Assembly: GCA_002700845.1 (NCBI GenBank) | Contig: PAFA01000025.1 | Coordinates: forward strand, 1 to 33,287 | DNA: 33,287 nucleotides | Direction: 5' to 3' | Source of the DNA: Phycisphaerae bacterium | GTDB taxonomy: Bacteria > Planctomycetota > Phycisphaerae > Phycisphaerales > SM1A02 | Part shown: positions 10,748 through 19,281 of the stretch, in pieces | How the letters are laid out: each line of letters starts with the position of its first letter | Position numbering within the stretch: the first letter of the stretch is position 1 | Made by a program: the position numbers and the translations under genes | Notes under the pieces: generated by a model | What the model was told of the DNA's origin: nothing | Seen by the model: only the letters and a program-made list of their open reading frames with translations | Database searches by the model: none

Positions 10748-11701
10748 ATGGCACATACGCTCGGAGTGAGCAGTTCAGACATTGTTACCGCCGCGGAGTA
10801 TCTTCGCTTGGGCGGGGTTGTGGGGTTACCCACGGAAACGGTGTATGGCCTTGCCGCATCAGCGTTCAATTCTGAGGCAGTATCAGAGATTTTTCGACTC
10901 AAAGGCCGACCACCGAACAACCCGTTGATCGTGCACATCCACGATTTTGATCAAGTGGATCGGTTGGCGAGAAGAATTCCTCCTTCCCTGTCCAAAATTG
11001 TTGACGAATATTGGCCCGGAGCCCTCACAGTCGTCTTGGAAGCTCACCCCGATATCCCCGGGATTGTTCTTGGGGGTGGCTCCACCGTCGGGATCCGAAT
11101 GCCGGCCCACCCAGTTTTTCGTGAAGTGCTTTCGGCGCTTGGTGAACCTCTTGCTGCACCCAGCGCGAACCGATCCAATCACGTTTCTCCAACCAATGCC
11201 TTTCATGTTGAATCAGATTTTCCAGACGAAAACTTCCCCATCCTTGACGCTGGTCCGTCAACGATTGGATTGGAGTCAACCGTTCTTTCCCTGGTTGGTA
11301 CACCTAAAGTTTTGCGTTTGGGTGGTATTTCAGCATCAGCGTTGCAAAAATTGATTCCAGACTTACAAGTTCAGATTTCAACACAGCAAACAGAGTCACC
11401 AGGAACATCCAGTCGCCACTACGCCCCTAAAACCTCATTTCGGGTTTGGTTTAATAAACAACCTTCTGGGTCTTTTGGTGTCCTGGTGTTTGGCACCCCT
11501 TTCCAACACGAAGCAAACAAAGTGTGGGATCTCGGGGATAAACCATTAGAAGCGGCAAAAAAACTTTACAGCACTATTCGTGAAATGGATCAAAGCAACT
11601 TTGATTCACTGTTTGTGGTGTTGCCGAATCAAGAACAAATGAAAAACTCAGACTGGACGGCAATTATTGATCGCTTGGGCCGCGCGACCCAGTCGAAATA
11701 A
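10748..11701 (+). CDS. L-threonylcarbamoyladenylate synthase (Sua5 type)
   Basis: The enzyme makes threonylcarbamoyl-AMP from threonine, bicarbonate and ATP, the donor for the t6A modification of tRNAs that read ANN codons. The YrdC domain (about residues 8-200) shows GGVVGLPTETVYGLA near 26, the KGRPPNNPLIVHI motif near 54, PGALTVVLEA, and the GIRMPAHPV and PLAAPSANRSNHVSPT motifs. The linker SPGTSSRHYAP near 217 and the following 100-residue domain are characteristic of the longer Sua5 form rather than the short TsaC. Its last 38 bases overlap the ChaN-type gene on the other strand. The other t6A genes (tsaB, tsaD, tsaE) are not in the window. Confidence 0.93.
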   Translation: MAHTLGVSSSDIVTAAEYLRLGGVVGLPTETVYGLAASAFNSEAVSEIFRLKGRPPNNPLIVHIHDFDQVDRLARRIPPSLSKIVDEYWPGALTVVLEAHPDIPGIVLGGGSTVGIRMPAHPVFREVLSALGEPLAAPSANRSNHVSPTNAFHVESDFPDENFPILDAGPSTIGLESTVLSLVGTPKVLRLGGISASALQKLIPDLQVQISTQQTESPGTSSRHYAPKTSFRVWFNKQPSGSFGVLVFGTPFQHEANKVWDLGDKPLEAAKKLYSTIREMDQSNFDSLFVVLPNQEQMKNSDWTAIIDRLGRATQSK

Positions 11702-12560
11702 CCACATCAGCGGTGTGCATTAAATCATCTGGAAGCATCTCGAAAAAATCTGGAACCAAACTAACGGTAAGAATTTCATCGGAAGGCCGGCGGTGTGAAT
11801 ATTCCAAGACAGTCGCGCCATTTTCGAGGATATGGAAGGCGCCAACCAAAAGCACCGCTGGCTGCGCACCTGAGGAACGAAGATCAGCCAAACTTTTACC
11901 CATTGAAGCATCCCAGATTCGCTGCGCGAGATAAAACCGATCACCAGTAGCTGGATCAGTATTTTCGCCCATCAAATCAAAAAACCGGTTTCGATACTCC
12001 TGGTCATCAATATCAGTTGGTAAGGAAAACCATGCAGATCGAGTTCCATCGGTGGGCAAAGCATCTTTCCCCGCGATCCGGGCGTGACGCACGTATCGGC
12101 GTGGTGCGTTGGCTGCAAAAACCAAACCCTCGCGGTCAAAAATAATATCTATAGAAGGTTGATAAAAAGTGTCCCAAGTTTTCAGCCCCGCCCAATTGGT
12201 GCTGCCTGTAAGTTCCCTGAAGGTTTCTTGATCGATGACGCCATCCCGAAAATCATCCAATAACGGTTGTTCATCTCTTTCGAGCATTTCCAGCGCTAAA
12301 CCAGTACCTGATGGGGCATCCTCCAAGAGGGCTTGTTGAACCAGATGACCCACAAGGTCATCATGCATCTCCCCCAACATGACAGCGTCAGCTTTGGAAA
12401 ATCGGTCTTGTAATTCAGACCACATCATTGGTTTTCCTGAGTGCCCATCAAAGACTGGACAAAATCTTGGATCTGGTGTGTTTTGGATGTCTTCTTGAAC
12501 TGTTAAAGAATGAGAGCATCCCATTAGGAACAGCACACCCAGGATCTTTGGCGTTGTCAT
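11664..12560 (-). CDS. ChaN-family lipoprotein
   Basis: A 298-residue lipoprotein: the signal peptide ends in the lipobox FLMGC (Cys 15). The ChaN-like domain shows VMLGEMHDDLVGH near residue 60, LALEMLERDEQPLLDDF near 98, FAANAPRRYVRHA and LLVGAFHILENGATV near the C-terminus. ChaN proteins form dimers and some bind haem, with a proposed role in iron uptake; the role here is unproven. The gene is last in a minus-strand run after the SpoIID gene (14-bp gap), so co-expression is likely. No TonB receptor or other iron gene is next to it. Confidence 0.85.
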   Translation of the reverse strand: MTTPKILGVLFLMGCSHSLTVQEDIQNTPDPRFCPVFDGHSGKPMMWSELQDRFSKADAVMLGEMHDDLVGHLVQQALLEDAPSGTGLALEMLERDEQPLLDDFRDGVIDQETFRELTGSTNWAGLKTWDTFYQPSIDIIFDREGLVFAANAPRRYVRHARIAGKDALPTDGTRSAWFSLPTDIDDQEYRNRFFDLMGENTDPATGDRFYLAQRIWDASMGKSLADLRSSGAQPAVLLVGAFHILENGATVLEYSHRRPSDEILTVSLVPDFFEMLPDDLMHTADVVISTGSRGPSDQ

Positions 12561-12574
12561 CCCCCAATATTAGA

Positions 12575-13786
12575 TCACGGCCCCCAGTTGAAGGCAATTT
12601 TAGCACCCGGGTACCCAAGCGAAAGAATCTTGCGCCACGTCAACCCTGACTGTGCTCGGGCTTCAGACCCAAACTGGCACAAACCCACTCCATGACCAAA
12701 ACCAGCACCAGTCAGTTTCAGTGAACCAGCTTCGTTTTCACAACGAAGGACCCACCCCGAATACACGTCAGCCCCAGCAGCCCGTAATTTTTCCCGGAGT
12801 GTGCTCGAAGGTAAATTTTTGGTAACACCTTTGTTGTCCCGAAGTTGGAACTGAACCGTTCGTCCCCAGGGGTTGGTTTGAATAGGTTTGATTGAGCGAA
12901 TTGAACCCAAACCAACTTCCCCTCCAAGCTTCCGCCCTGATACTTCTGAAAACCAGCGATACCGACTGCTTTTTTGACATGGGCAAGGTCGACCTTGGCC
13001 CGAAAGCGGTGGAACAGCATTGGCTGGAGACATCCATCTGTCTGAAGCCCGAGCGGGACGGCCACCACAGCACGAAGAGTAATAGGCACAAAGAATCTGA
13101 TTGTTCCAGGTCAAGACTTGACCTCGAGTTTTTAAAACAGCTTCGGTGGCGACAGTACGAATTTCCCCTCCAACAAACGCTTGATCTTGGGCACTGGCCC
13201 GAACATGCCAAAATTTACCGCGGCGATCTTTCATCCTGACCAACGCAAAAGACCGAGCCGCGACCGCCAACGCTCGATACGTGTTGGGATGCCATTGTGA
13301 ATACAACTCACGTTGCAACACACCTGGTAGGTACGTTTCTAAACCAAAGGCCCCAACGACCTCGATCATCCCTTCTTGATGCCGGAGAGACAGACTGTTG
13401 GTTGGAAATTGAGTGCCATTGATTAAAAAATCACTTGGCGAAGACAAATCAAGTGTGCCACCTTGTTGCTCAGTGAGGACTTGAGAACCACGCAGCAGTT
13501 TCCATGTGGACCCTTTATTTTCTTTTGTGTAAGAAATTGTCAACGGGCCAGCGAATGGCTTTCCACCAAATCGGGTGATTGTTGAAGAATCTCCAACCTT
13601 CAATACTGAGGTGGGGAGATCCAACAACCGAACCTTGATGGTGGGCTCTACTGCAGGAGTACGCAGTGGGAGGTCTAATGTTTTTCTGCCAGCTGTCTGT
13701 TGACTGCAACCCAAGGGTATTCCCATAGTCGCGGAACCAATGACCGCACGAACCATACCCCTACGAGACAAGAACCCATCATCCAT
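12575..13786 (-). CDS. SpoIID/LytB domain lipoprotein (putative glycan-strand enzyme)
   Basis: This 403-residue protein has a twin-arginine-like start (SRRGMVR, residues 7-13) followed by a lipobox (IPLGC, Cys 27), suggesting export and lipid anchoring. The SpoIID/LytB domain shows YLPGVLQRELYSQWHP near residue 150, YRALAVAARSFAL, the AYYSSCCGGRPA segment near 231 and the C-terminal GAGFGHGVGLCQFGSEA and YPGAKI motifs. In spore formers SpoIID is a lytic transglycosylase acting on denuded peptidoglycan; in this non-sporulating context a role in cell-wall turnover is inferred. It is 14 bp upstream of the ChaN-type gene and 51 bp downstream of the TPR-alphaCTD gene, probably one operon. Confidence 0.88.
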   Translation of the reverse strand: MDDGFLSRRGMVRAVIGSATMGIPLGCSQQTAGRKTLDLPLRTPAVEPTIKVRLLDLPTSVLKVGDSSTITRFGGKPFAGPLTISYTKENKGSTWKLLRGSQVLTEQQGGTLDLSSPSDFLINGTQFPTNSLSLRHQEGMIEVVGAFGLETYLPGVLQRELYSQWHPNTYRALAVAARSFALVRMKDRRGKFWHVRASAQDQAFVGGEIRTVATEAVLKTRGQVLTWNNQILCAYYSSCCGGRPARASDRWMSPANAVPPLSGQGRPCPCQKSSRYRWFSEVSGRKLGGEVGLGSIRSIKPIQTNPWGRTVQFQLRDNKGVTKNLPSSTLREKLRAAGADVYSGWVLRCENEAGSLKLTGAGFGHGVGLCQFGSEARAQSGLTWRKILSLGYPGAKIAFNWGP

Positions 13787-13837: not shown

Positions 13838-14755
13838 TTATCCCAGTTTGCGGAGTGACAGGTTGTGCACTTCCAACCGTTCTTTGATTTCATCCAAGCT
13901 GGTAGAGCCAAAGTTCTTGACACCCATAAGCTCAGCTTCGGTTCGCATCGCCAGGTCACCAATGGTGCCAATACCAAGGAGCTGCAGCGCTTTACGAGCT
14001 CTGACCGACAGGTCTAGGCCCGAAATAGGCTTGTTTAGCACGTGGTCTGGAGCCAAACCTTTGAGCTCTTCGAAAGCGTCATTCTGGTTGCGACGGATTT
14101 GCCCATCAACACCTTGACCCAGCCGCAAACCTTTACTGGCAAGCATGCTTTTAATTTCAACCAAACTGGTCTCACCAAAGTTTCGGTAAGAAAGAAGTTC
14201 AGCTTCTCCAACCTTGAGAAGGTCACCAAGGGTTCGGATATTCATCTTCTTTAAGCAGTTTCGGGCACGTACCGACAACTCAAAGTCAGTGACTGGTGTA
14301 TCAAGCATTGTGTTGAAGCGACCTTGATCTCGCTCAGTATCTTCATCAAAGAGCATTGATTCACTGGCTTCGCAATCCCGCTGGAACATCCGAGCTCTTG
14401 GGTGATTGGGATTTGATTCCAACACCGGGCGAAGCACCCGCATGGCCTCGTCGTACTCCCCACGATCCTCAAACATGATTGCCAAGTTGATGAGGGCGTT
14501 GGTGTGCGGCTGCTCATCAGCGGCAAGCGACTGGTACAACGACATTGCCTCTTCTTCTTCGCCCATCAAATCCAACAACCAGGCAAGGCGGAAGCGAGAT
14601 TCTTTCAACGGGCTCTCGGCCACAGCTTCTCTGTAGGCACCAATCGCAGCGATTCGATCACCTTCAGATTCAGCAGTTACGCCACGCTGGTGATGTTCTT
14701 TGGCTTTGGCGATATCGCCCTCGCCAATAACGAGGTCTTCAGTGTTCATGCTCAT
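13838..14755 (-). CDS. TPR protein with two RNA polymerase alpha-CTD-like domains
   Basis: The 305-residue soluble protein has about three TPR-like repeats (residues 15-130), an acidic linker, then two copies of a domain matching the C-terminal domain of the RNA polymerase alpha subunit. Copy 1 (154-212) reads FELSVRARNCLKKMNI and RNFGETSLVEIKSML and keeps the residues matching E. coli Arg265, Asn268, Cys269, Gly296, Ser299 and Glu302, with Thr for Lys298. Copy 2 (243-301, LDLSVRARKALQLLGI) keeps the Arg but has Lys and Ala for Asn and Cys. The alpha N-terminal assembly domain is absent, so it is not RpoA. DNA, UP-element or transcription-factor contact is plausible but unproven. A second in-frame ATG is at 14749. 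Confidence 0.9.
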   Translation of the reverse strand: MSMNTEDLVIGEGDIAKAKEHHQRGVTAESEGDRIAAIGAYREAVAESPLKESRFRLAWLLDLMGEEEEAMSLYQSLAADEQPHTNALINLAIMFEDRGEYDEAMRVLRPVLESNPNHPRARMFQRDCEASESMLFDEDTERDQGRFNTMLDTPVTDFELSVRARNCLKKMNIRTLGDLLKVGEAELLSYRNFGETSLVEIKSMLASKGLRLGQGVDGQIRRNQNDAFEELKGLAPDHVLNKPISGLDLSVRARKALQLLGIGTIGDLAMRTEAELMGVKNFGSTSLDEIKERLEVHNLSLRKLG

Positions 14756-14835
14756 CGAAAATCGGTCCTCATAGGGTCTAAGTCCAACCCGTTGGGCCAG
14801 ACGAACGGACCATCATAGGATCACCGGAACATTCG

Positions 14836-16278
14836 TCAACTCCCCTTGGCGGACTTAGAATCAATCAGGTTGATATTTCGCCACTTCCCTGATTTCCACC
14901 GCCAAGCCATCACCACACCAAGGGCAAGGATGTAAAGGGTGGCGGCGATCCATGGGCCAATTGAGGCACTCTCTGGAATCACCCACAACGAGAGGTAGCC
15001 CAAGCCAATCAAGATGGTCCACTGGAGGACCACCATGACGACTCCGGGCCAGGTGGTATCCCCAGCACCGCGTAGGGCACCAGAAAGCACAATGCCCACA
15101 GCGTCAAGGGTTTGCCAAAAAGCAGCACAAAGCAACATCCATCGTCCGAGCCGCATGATTTCCACTCGACTGGCCTCAGGGGTGTTTTGGTTGATGAAGA
15201 TTCCAATAAGTGGTTCGTAAAGGGTGGCGAAAACCAAAGCCCAAAGAGTCATATACACAATGCCAATTTGCAAAGTGATTCGGACTCGCGACTGGGCTTC
15301 TTCGGGACGATTTTCACCAATGAGTCGTCCAACAATCGAGGTGATCGCCACAGAAAAGCCGACAGCAGGCATAAAAGAAAGATGCATGTAACGCATGGCA
15401 ATCCATGAGGCCGTCATGTGCTCTGCACCAAAGCGTCCAACCAGAGCAGTCATAAACCATGCCCAACAGATCAGCTCACTGCCCCAAGATAAAGAAGCAG
15501 GCCAACCCCTTTTGAACAAATCACAACACGCTGAAACATGCCAGCCACGAGCGCCGAGAACATCAAAAACAGCTTTTGTTTTCGAAGAAAAAAGAGCCAC
15601 CAAAGGGATGAATGCTTCAACAATCGAACCAATCACTGTTCCCCAAGCGGCTCCCGCAACCCCAAGTTGTGGAGCAAATGAGATCCCAGGAAGTCCGAGT
15701 GATGGCACTCCAAATTCACCAAACACCAGTGCGTAGGAGGCGAATAGGTTGGTGAGATTGCCCAAAATGGCAGAGAGCGTGACAACTTTTGGTCGATGCA
15801 AACCAAAGAAGCAATTGTGACTGAGACGGCCCAAAAGACTGAAAAGGCCACCAGCCAACAATATTTGTCCGTAGGCAATTTCTTTTTTGACCAGACTTGG
15901 TTGTCCAAGGTCACCATGGAGTTCATCAAAAAACCAAGGGAGAGCAGCAGCAAGTGGCAACATGATCAACAGCCACCACAGCAGGGCCAACCACAGCCCA
16001 GCCCAAGCAAATTTTGCCCCCCGATTGGCATCACCAGCCCCCAAATGTTGGCTCACAAATGTGTTGACCAACGAGAGCGTGCCGGCGGCAATAGAAATAG
16101 GAGCAAAGGCCCATACACCAGCATTTCCCTGGGCGGCTACATCCTCGGTCCCTACTTGTCCCAAAAGCACAGCATCAACAAATTGCATCACCGTGTAACT
16201 CGTCATCGTGATAACAGTTGGCCACGCAAGGTGCCAAACCTCAGCCAAAGGGCGTTCTGGACGGTTGGGACTGTTCAT
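14836..16278 (-). CDS. MATE-family multidrug/toxin efflux transporter
   Basis: A polytopic inner-membrane protein of 480 residues with about 12 membrane segments in two pseudo-repeats, typical of MATE (NorM/DinF) transporters that export cationic compounds using Na+ or H+ gradients. Visible are the N-terminal AEVWHLAWPTVI helix, FVDAVLLGQVGTEDVAA, the SLVNTFVSQHLGAGD motif and in the second half VGFSVAITSIVGRLIGENRPEEA. The reading frame extends upstream to 16395, but that would overlap the divergent thioredoxin gene; ATG 16278 gives a normal MATE N-terminus. It is first in the minus-strand run toward the TPR-alphaCTD gene (80-bp gap). Substrate unknown. Confidence 0.92.
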   Translation of the reverse strand: MNSPNRPERPLAEVWHLAWPTVITMTSYTVMQFVDAVLLGQVGTEDVAAQGNAGVWAFAPISIAAGTLSLVNTFVSQHLGAGDANRGAKFAWAGLWLALLWWLLIMLPLAAALPWFFDELHGDLGQPSLVKKEIAYGQILLAGGLFSLLGRLSHNCFFGLHRPKVVTLSAILGNLTNLFASYALVFGEFGVPSLGLPGISFAPQLGVAGAAWGTVIGSIVEAFIPLVALFSSKTKAVFDVLGARGWHVSACCDLFKRGWPASLSWGSELICWAWFMTALVGRFGAEHMTASWIAMRYMHLSFMPAVGFSVAITSIVGRLIGENRPEEAQSRVRITLQIGIVYMTLWALVFATLYEPLIGIFINQNTPEASRVEIMRLGRWMLLCAAFWQTLDAVGIVLSGALRGAGDTTWPGVVMVVLQWTILIGLGYLSLWVIPESASIGPWIAATLYILALGVVMAWRWKSGKWRNINLIDSKSAKGS

Positions 16279-17469: not shown

Positions 17470-19281
17470 TTAAAGCAAAGTCAACAAGACCAGTAGATCA
17501 CTGAAATCCACATCCCCGTTGCTGTTTAGATCTTCAGGACATCCGGTGCAAGGTCCCCAAGCCGCAAGAAGGATAAGCAGGTCGTTGAAGTTAACGACAC
17601 CATCCCCATTGAAATCACCAATCACGGGAGAGCCAATAGAAAGCTGGAGATTTACCCCCAAAAGGTCTTGGCTCTGACCAGGAATATCTTCATCAAGCGT
17701 TGTGAATACCAGTGGTAATTCATATTCACCGGGGACAGAAGCATCAATCAAAACCTTTATTGATTCCGAACCGCTTCCAAGATTGGCTGGTGTATCAATC
17801 ACACTTATGAGTGGAAAATCAATCGGTGATATCAAATCATCAAAGAACAGCCGTGACTGCAAGCTGTCGAATCCAAAATTCCAAACTTCAAGTTCGAACA
17901 ACACGGGTTCACTACCGATGTCAATTGAAGCGGAAACAACTCCACCAGGAATAAAAACGTCGGGTGAAAGCGACGGCTGAGCCGGCCGAATACATGTCCA
18001 ACTCATTGGATAAACACCAAGTCCACCAGTTCCTACGACAGGAGAGCCCAAGACGATGGTGCCAGTCTTCGGGCCAACTGATGAAGCATCGACAGGAAGA
18101 GTCGTTTGGGATGAATCAAGAACAGGGGTTGTTCCAGATCGCGCACCGTTGACCCCCCCATTCCCATCGATGGTCCACTCGAGAGGCATGGAACCCGCAG
18201 GGACCTGCGCGGGGGTGGTATGTGTGATGACGAAGGGGGCCTGAGGATTGTTGCCAAGAACGACTCGATCGAAAGACGCCAAAATTTCACCGGAAGCTGG
18301 AAGTGAGAATTCCACAACAACTGGAACATGATCAGCACCATCGTGCAGGGCATCAGCAAGTTGATTGCTTCGAGATATTTCCCCGGGGTAGTAAAAGTTG
18401 TTTCCACTGTTGATTGCGTTGTTGTAGTGCGAACCATCGTTCCCAAGAGACCGGTAGCTCCCCGGAATAAGATTCAAACCTGTTCCACCCTGGGTCGAGG
18501 TACTGCTAAAAATAAAATCAAATCGATCATCCATGCCCCCTCCGACCAAGCCATCGTCGCTCGAACTGCTTCGTGGGCTCTGGGTGTGTCGAATTGCATT
18601 ACCAGAACCTGACCAAGACCCGTTTCCCAATGGATCAATGATCGCATTGTTGCCTGAGGTGTTTTCGATCAACTCATAACCTGATTCCGAATTGGAGTAA
18701 AAATTAAAATCGCCTCCCCAAATAATGTTGGCATTGTCAGGAAGGTTGGCGATGTCATTCAAGATCGTTTGGGTTCCACTCTCCCGGAGATCTTCATTGC
18801 TTGATCCTTGACTCGCTTTGAGGTGGCAGGAATACAACCAAAAATCGGTGGCCCCATCGGATGCGTCAAGGGTGAACCGCCAACGATCACTGTCGCGTCC
18901 GGCACCAGTAAATAAATCACGGTGATCACCAACCATCTCAGTCAACAAATCCCCTCGGTAGATACAAGCCTGGGCTCCACCAGAATCAGAGTTTGTGTAA
19001 GTCGCAATACGCCAGGTTGGTCCCGGAACCTCAGCATTCAGGAGACTTCGGATCGTGGTTTGATCACCCTCGTTGACTTCTTGCAGAATCAAGATCGCTG
19101 GGGCAGCTGACCAGCCTGGCGTGTCATCTTCAGCCAACTCAGACAATATTGTCCGGATGGCCGAAAGCTCTCCACGTAGAGCAGCACAATTCCAGGTCAC
19201 CACCCGGAATTGGGCGTCAGCCATGGCCGTAAAGGACAAGATCAAGAGGACGACGGATTGCCGAAGGGCAACTGGGGGCAT
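17470..19281 (-). CDS. Secreted endonuclease/exonuclease/phosphatase-fold protein with dockerin-type C-terminus
   Basis: This 603-residue protein has a signal peptide (about 1-23), then an EEP domain with FRVVTWNCAAL near 25, the metal-binding Glu of LILQEVN near 64, YSCHLKAS near 150, WGGDFNFYSN near 190, a DDRFDFIFS strand near 255 and the terminal DGADHVPVVVEF near 315. These are the catalytic residues of DNase I-like nucleases and phosphoesterases. A beta-rich, Ig-like region (about 335-540) follows. The last 55 residues are dockerin-type: two calcium-loop-like repeats, DFNGDGVVNFNDLLILLAAWG and DLNSNGDVDFSDLLVLL. In Phycisphaerae such tails are common on secreted proteins. Likely an extracellular nuclease for nutrient scavenging; the substrate is inferred. 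Confidence 0.88.
   Translation of the reverse strand: MPPVALRQSVVLLILSFTAMADAQFRVVTWNCAALRGELSAIRTILSELAEDDTPGWSAAPAILILQEVNEGDQTTIRSLLNAEVPGPTWRIATYTNSDSGGAQACIYRGDLLTEMVGDHRDLFTGAGRDSDRWRFTLDASDGATDFWLYSCHLKASQGSSNEDLRESGTQTILNDIANLPDNANIIWGGDFNFYSNSESGYELIENTSGNNAIIDPLGNGSWSGSGNAIRHTQSPRSSSSDDGLVGGGMDDRFDFIFSSTSTQGGTGLNLIPGSYRSLGNDGSHYNNAINSGNNFYYPGEISRSNQLADALHDGADHVPVVVEFSLPASGEILASFDRVVLGNNPQAPFVITHTTPAQVPAGSMPLEWTIDGNGGVNGARSGTTPVLDSSQTTLPVDASSVGPKTGTIVLGSPVVGTGGLGVYPMSWTCIRPAQPSLSPDVFIPGGVVSASIDIGSEPVLFELEVWNFGFDSLQSRLFFDDLISPIDFPLISVIDTPANLGSGSESIKVLIDASVPGEYELPLVFTTLDEDIPGQSQDLLGVNLQLSIGSPVIGDFNGDGVVNFNDLLILLAAWGPCTGCPEDLNSNGDVDFSDLLVLLTLL

Follow-up and report, generated by a model that had tools for sequence, protein, structure and literature searches.

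A protein that joins TPRs to two copies of the alpha-CTD of RNA polymerase, and that is encoded separately from the alpha subunit, is the product of a near-universal core gene among the Planctomycetota genomes examined. It is strongly conserved and, as far as we could find, uncharacterized, and it likely has a role in transcription initiation. We give an even chance to the more specific reading that it is a trans-acting initiation factor which would supply RNA polymerase with alpha-CTDs without being an alpha subunit itself. Alpha-CTDs are normally tethered to the polymerase, two per enzyme. That a separate alpha-CTD protein, conserved more strongly still, is kept by nearly all members of the phylum suggests an unrecognized part of the planctomycete transcription machinery.

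Architecture and Predicted Fold

The gene was found in a stretch of DNA of 33,287 nucleotides from a Phycisphaerae bacterium (the whole stretch analyzed, hereafter the window), in an open reading frame lying exactly where an earlier sequence-only reading had placed it. Its features, and a candidate promoter, are as follows:

13838..14755, minus strand: gene for the protein with TPRs and a double alpha-CTD (305 aa; coordinates include the stop codon)
14345..14713, minus strand: TPR region, residues ~15-137 (Pfam TPR matches, AlphaFold helices, VIA-align)
14303..14401, minus strand: long connecting helix, residues 119-151 (AlphaFold; D127, M134, D137 and E138 conserved phylum-wide)
14114..14311, minus strand: alpha-CTD module 1, residues 149-214 (PF03118, alignment, predicted fold)
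14045..14113, minus strand: variable linker between the modules, residues 215-237 (11% mean identity across families)
13850..14044, minus strand: alpha-CTD module 2, residues 238-302 (PF03118, alignment, predicted fold)
14812..14839, minus strand: weak candidate for a promoter, TTGACG-16-TATGAT, just upstream of the gene start

The arrangement of TPRs and two tandem alpha-CTDs described in the sequence-only reading was borne out by domain searches. PF03118 (RNA_pol_A_CTD) matched two stretches of the protein (E 1.6e-40, 137.1 bits against a Pfam cut-off of 23.8), and TPR_19, TPR_14, TPR_2, TPR_7 and TPR_6 exceeded their Pfam cut-offs over roughly residues 17-126. The NCBIfam rpoA models matched in their CTD part only, from profile position ~217 onward, and none reached its cut-off (128.6 bits vs. 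227.8 for TIGR02027). Therefore, the alpha N-terminal domain is absent, again as had been proposed, and its place, that of the domain for dimerization and beta/beta' binding, is occupied by the TPRs. The domains themselves are known; it is their combination that is uncommon. The promoter-like site agrees with the consensus at 10 of 12 positions, and the window holds four such sites against 1.0 expected.

In the source genome (1.77 Mb, 78% complete, 104 contigs), PF03118 matches at exactly three places: the two modules described here and the CTD of an ordinary RpoA, which is encoded on a different contig (CTD at G000:C46:21108-21296). We rejected the possibility of a divergent or duplicated RpoA because the N-terminal domain is missing and a separate RpoA is present. 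A fortuitous reading frame was rejected on the conservation of 13838-14755 among relatives; given the strength of the PF03118 match and orthologues in 277 of 294 genomes of the phylum, the gene is real, far beyond chance.

An AlphaFold model was built from 56 Phycisphaerae sequences. The TPRs and both modules were modeled confidently (pLDDT 83.8 for the full protein), however, the pTM of 0.45 leaves the domain arrangement uncertain and we therefore make no claim on the relative placement of the modules. In Foldseek, a piece of 64-65 residues, assigned to module 1 by its identity of ~52% since the query range was not printed, aligned at 0.6-0.8 Å to the E. coli alpha-CTD in a CAP-DNA complex (3n4m) and to the Caulobacter alpha-CTD on AT-rich DNA (9zum). 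When module 2 was folded by itself (pLDDT 86.1), its best full-domain alignments, over ~65 residues, were at 0.8-1.1 Å to 9zum_A, 8y5t_A2, 1z3e_B and 1lb2_E. The TPR part (residues ~12-137) matched TPR domains with VIA-align Z scores of 15-17 (up to 16.7). Both modules are alpha-CTDs by sequence and predicted fold. A generic helix-hairpin-helix fold, which the earlier reading had named as an outcome that would refute it, was rejected because HHH_5 scored 21 bits, below its Pfam cut-off, against 137 bits for PF03118, and because the predicted modules superpose on true alpha-CTDs, DNA-bound ones included.

Several known systems share parts of this design. The helical repeats resemble those of TPR scaffold proteins such as O-GlcNAc transferase, PP5 and RPAP3, however, the 305-aa protein has no catalytic domain and ends in alpha-CTDs instead. 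Alpha-CTD-like stretches outside RpoA also occur in BREX PglW (NCBIfam NF033442) and in the hypothetical PRK07758 (NF005841), but these have other architectures and our protein falls far below both curated cut-offs, with 38 bits against 990 for PglW. The closest likeness is to the alpha-CTD of RpoA (PF03118) in fold, length and the contact residues of module 1 described below. It differs from RpoA in lacking the N-terminal domain, in carrying the alpha-CTD twice per chain on a TPR scaffold, and in not being the alpha subunit of its genome.

Distribution Across the Planctomycetota

The sequence-only reading had allowed that related proteins may exist in other planctomycetes, which proved an understatement. 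Full-length or nearly full-length relatives were found in 55 of 60 relatives within the order, with five genomes lacking the gene where ~3.7 would be expected from stated genome incompleteness alone. In the even sample of 294 genomes across the phylum, the 277 carriers noted above include 152 of the 154 high-quality genomes. The absences are within the range given by genome incompleteness and are therefore not taken as losses; G198, counted as one of the two high-quality “misses”, proved to have three alpha-CTD matches, of which two sit at the edge of a contig. All carriers but one have a single match per genome. An independent PF03118 search returned exactly three matches, one RpoA and the pair, in 69 of 79 genomes of the phylum. 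Outside Phycisphaerales the orthologues are mostly 400-500 aa long, owing to a longer N-terminal TPR part. Phages and plasmids yielded RpoA-like or alpha-CTD pieces only, with no full-length relative, and no relative was found among the viral contigs of IMG/VR; a phage or plasmid origin was rejected on these grounds.

Within the source genus, neither the gene nor the surrounding 4.7-kb block had a match in one genome (G002; 91% complete, 10 contigs), whereas two others carry both.

Contact Residues of the Two Modules

Residues were compared in 20 planctomycete genomes, nearly all of different families, with numbering set on E. coli K-12 rpoA. Alignment to E. coli rpoA upheld the earlier statement that module 1 keeps Arg265, Asn268, Cys269, Gly296, Ser299 and Glu302, which correspond to R163, N166, C167, G194, S197 and E200 of the source protein and are all present in 20/20 families. 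In E. coli, two of these residues, R265 and N268, play an important part in DNA binding (PMC11434276). It was also stated that module 2 keeps only the Arg, and this has to be corrected. Residues R252, N281, G283, S286 and E289 of module 2 are equivalent to positions 265, 294, 296, 299 and 302, and these positions are likewise invariant in 20/20 families. The changes in module 2 are restricted to position 268, where Asn is replaced by Lys or Arg in 17/20 families (Lys in the source protein), and position 269, which is mostly Cys or Ala (Ala in the source protein).

Module 1 also keeps D259, E261 and N294 (E. coli numbering). The equivalents of D259 and E261 are invariant in 20/20 genomes, while position 259 in RpoA's own CTD varies in the same genomes (E, V, D, A, S); position 273 is Met in module 1 vs. 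mostly Glu or Ala in the CTD of RpoA. In E. coli, D259 and E261 contact R603 of sigma70 and thereby aid UP-element function (PMC5511352). The primary sigma factor of the source genome retains the Arg that matches R603 (in the motif HPVR); at the level of sequence, the residues of this pair are present on both partners.

Constraint and Natural Loss of Module 2

Mean pairwise identity over the 20 genomes was 72% for module 1, 52% for module 2, 52% for the CTD of RpoA and 55% for its N-terminal domain. Judged by these identities, module 1 is under stronger constraint than the polymerase's own CTD. Across families, the TPRs averaged 37% and the inter-module linker 11%. Invariant positions numbered 27 of 66 in module 1 and 10 in module 2. 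In a tree of 61 modules, module 1 and the RpoA CTDs each formed one group with good support, and module 2 formed one group with weak support (80/32); the tree was built on 65 columns and resolved little else. The separate grouping of the three indicates that the pair predates the split of the sampled families.

Four near-complete genomes from two genera of one family (G145, G248, G289 and G323, family f50) show no second module. Their orthologues keep the TPRs and module 1, with matches that stop at query residue 218-219, and PF03118 exceeds its cut-off in these genomes only in RpoA and module 1. In the single-contig genome G145 (locus C1:1874114-1874725) the protein ends ~25 residues past module 1. 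Module 2 is weakened in a related genus (G107; E 3e-9). A further apparent loss, in G139, was discounted, as a contig end cuts the gene. Module 1 therefore represents the retained core, with module 2 dispensable in some lineages, and the natural variants offer a built-in dissection of both modules. The earlier contrast of one DNA-binding with one diverged module thus holds in its direction, module 1 evolving slowly and module 2 faster with loss in part of one family, but not in the supposed loss of DNA-contact residues from module 2.

Genomic Neighborhood

The gene is separated by 80 bp from a MATE-type transporter gene that precedes it and by 51 bp from a SpoIID-like gene that follows; the three share the minus strand. 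Neighbor names here come from sequence inspection of representatives and not from a family search. Other genes noted in the window are:

12575-13786, minus strand: SpoIID-like gene, 51 bp downstream (name from sequence inspection)
11664-12560, minus strand: ChaN-like lipoprotein gene, after the SpoIID-like gene (name from sequence inspection)
17470-19281, minus strand: large secreted endonuclease/exonuclease/phosphatase-like protein with a dockerin-like end (inspection only)

The SpoIID-like and ChaN-like genes, on the same strand, perhaps share one transcript. The downstream same-strand neighbor is SpoIID-like in much of Phycisphaerae and Tgt-like in some other lineages. Over 40 neighborhoods from the phylum together with Phycisphaerae, no conserved transcription operon was found, the commonest neighbors being ruvA, SpoIID-like, Tgt and MATE genes.

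Proposed Role and Alternative Explanations

That module 1 is conserved above the polymerase's own tail across the phylum points to a phylum-wide transcription factor; read most simply, module 1 would do in trans what the CTD of RpoA does next to sigma. The steps that we infer are as follows. Module 1 would bind upstream AT-rich DNA in its minor groove, like the CTD of RpoA, and would sit beside sigma region 4 via its Asp259/Glu261 equivalents. Module 2 may provide a second, more adaptable contact with DNA or an activator. The TPRs would dock on a partner, which could be the polymerase core, a sigma factor or an activator, and the protein would in this way stabilize polymerase at a subset of promoters. 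The low conservation of the TPRs (37%) and the non-transcription neighbors count against an initiation factor, and in so small a fold residues may also be conserved for stability.

A bolder version is that Planctomycetota use their own constitutive general initiation factor, a detached pair of alpha-CTDs acting in trans beside sigma region 4. We hold this to be possible but doubtful; if true, promoters in the phylum are recognized with alpha-CTDs that do not belong to the polymerase.

It is also conceivable, although we consider it unlikely, that the protein is a decoy or adaptor whose modules mimic the CTD of RpoA and hold activators or anti-activators away from the polymerase, or pass them to it, with DNA binding secondary. 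Alpha-CTDs are known docking sites for regulators such as CAP and Spx (PDB matches 1lb2 and 1z3e), TPRs are protein-binding scaffolds, and module 2, in which N268 is lost, is freer to vary. However, a mere decoy need not hold all DNA-contact residues together with D259/E261 invariant in module 1. It should also track the surfaces of the RpoA CTD, yet the two form separate and consistently different groups. The earlier reading had proposed an adaptor that bridges DNA and a partner or competes with RpoA; by inference, the kept sigma-contact residues would favor co-operation at promoters over simple competition.

A role on the chromosome or in repair, with the alpha-CTDs co-opted as minor-groove binders in a nucleoid-associated or recombination-linked protein that does not work with polymerase, seems improbable to us. 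Two DNA-binding modules on a scaffold would suit a bridging protein, and 17 of the 40 phylum neighborhoods have a ruvA-like gene downstream on the same strand (loci including L138, L145, L147, L148, L150-L152, L155, L157, L160, L162 and L163). The ruvA link is not general, however, as the Phycisphaerae neighbors, those in the window included, are SpoIID-like and MATE genes, and module 1 keeps the sigma-contact residues. Very unlikely, finally, is that the modules are protein-protein or RNA-binding domains in another housekeeping process (e.g., translation) with residues kept for the fold: they are near neutral in net charge and no transcription gene is linked, but RpoA's own CTD here spans the same charge range and the R265 and N268 DNA contacts known from E. 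coli (PMC11434276) are invariant in module 1.

Significance and Other Alpha-CTD Proteins

Searches of open-licence PMC text turned up no paper that names the protein. A TraDIS study of Planctopirus limnophila, whose main text does not mention the gene, reported 108 essential phylum-specific proteins of unknown function (PMC10632474). The protein gives a testable question in a phylum whose cell biology is unusual and in which many essential genes have no known function. Public databases may already label orthologues by their alpha-CTD domain.

Alpha-CTD matches outside both RpoA and the present family were sporadic. They include frames of ~1400-1500 aa (G176, G075, G106 and G152), small frames of 137-155 aa (G222 and G176) and 101 aa (G006), and an 822-aa frame with three alpha-CTD matches (G078, contig C19).
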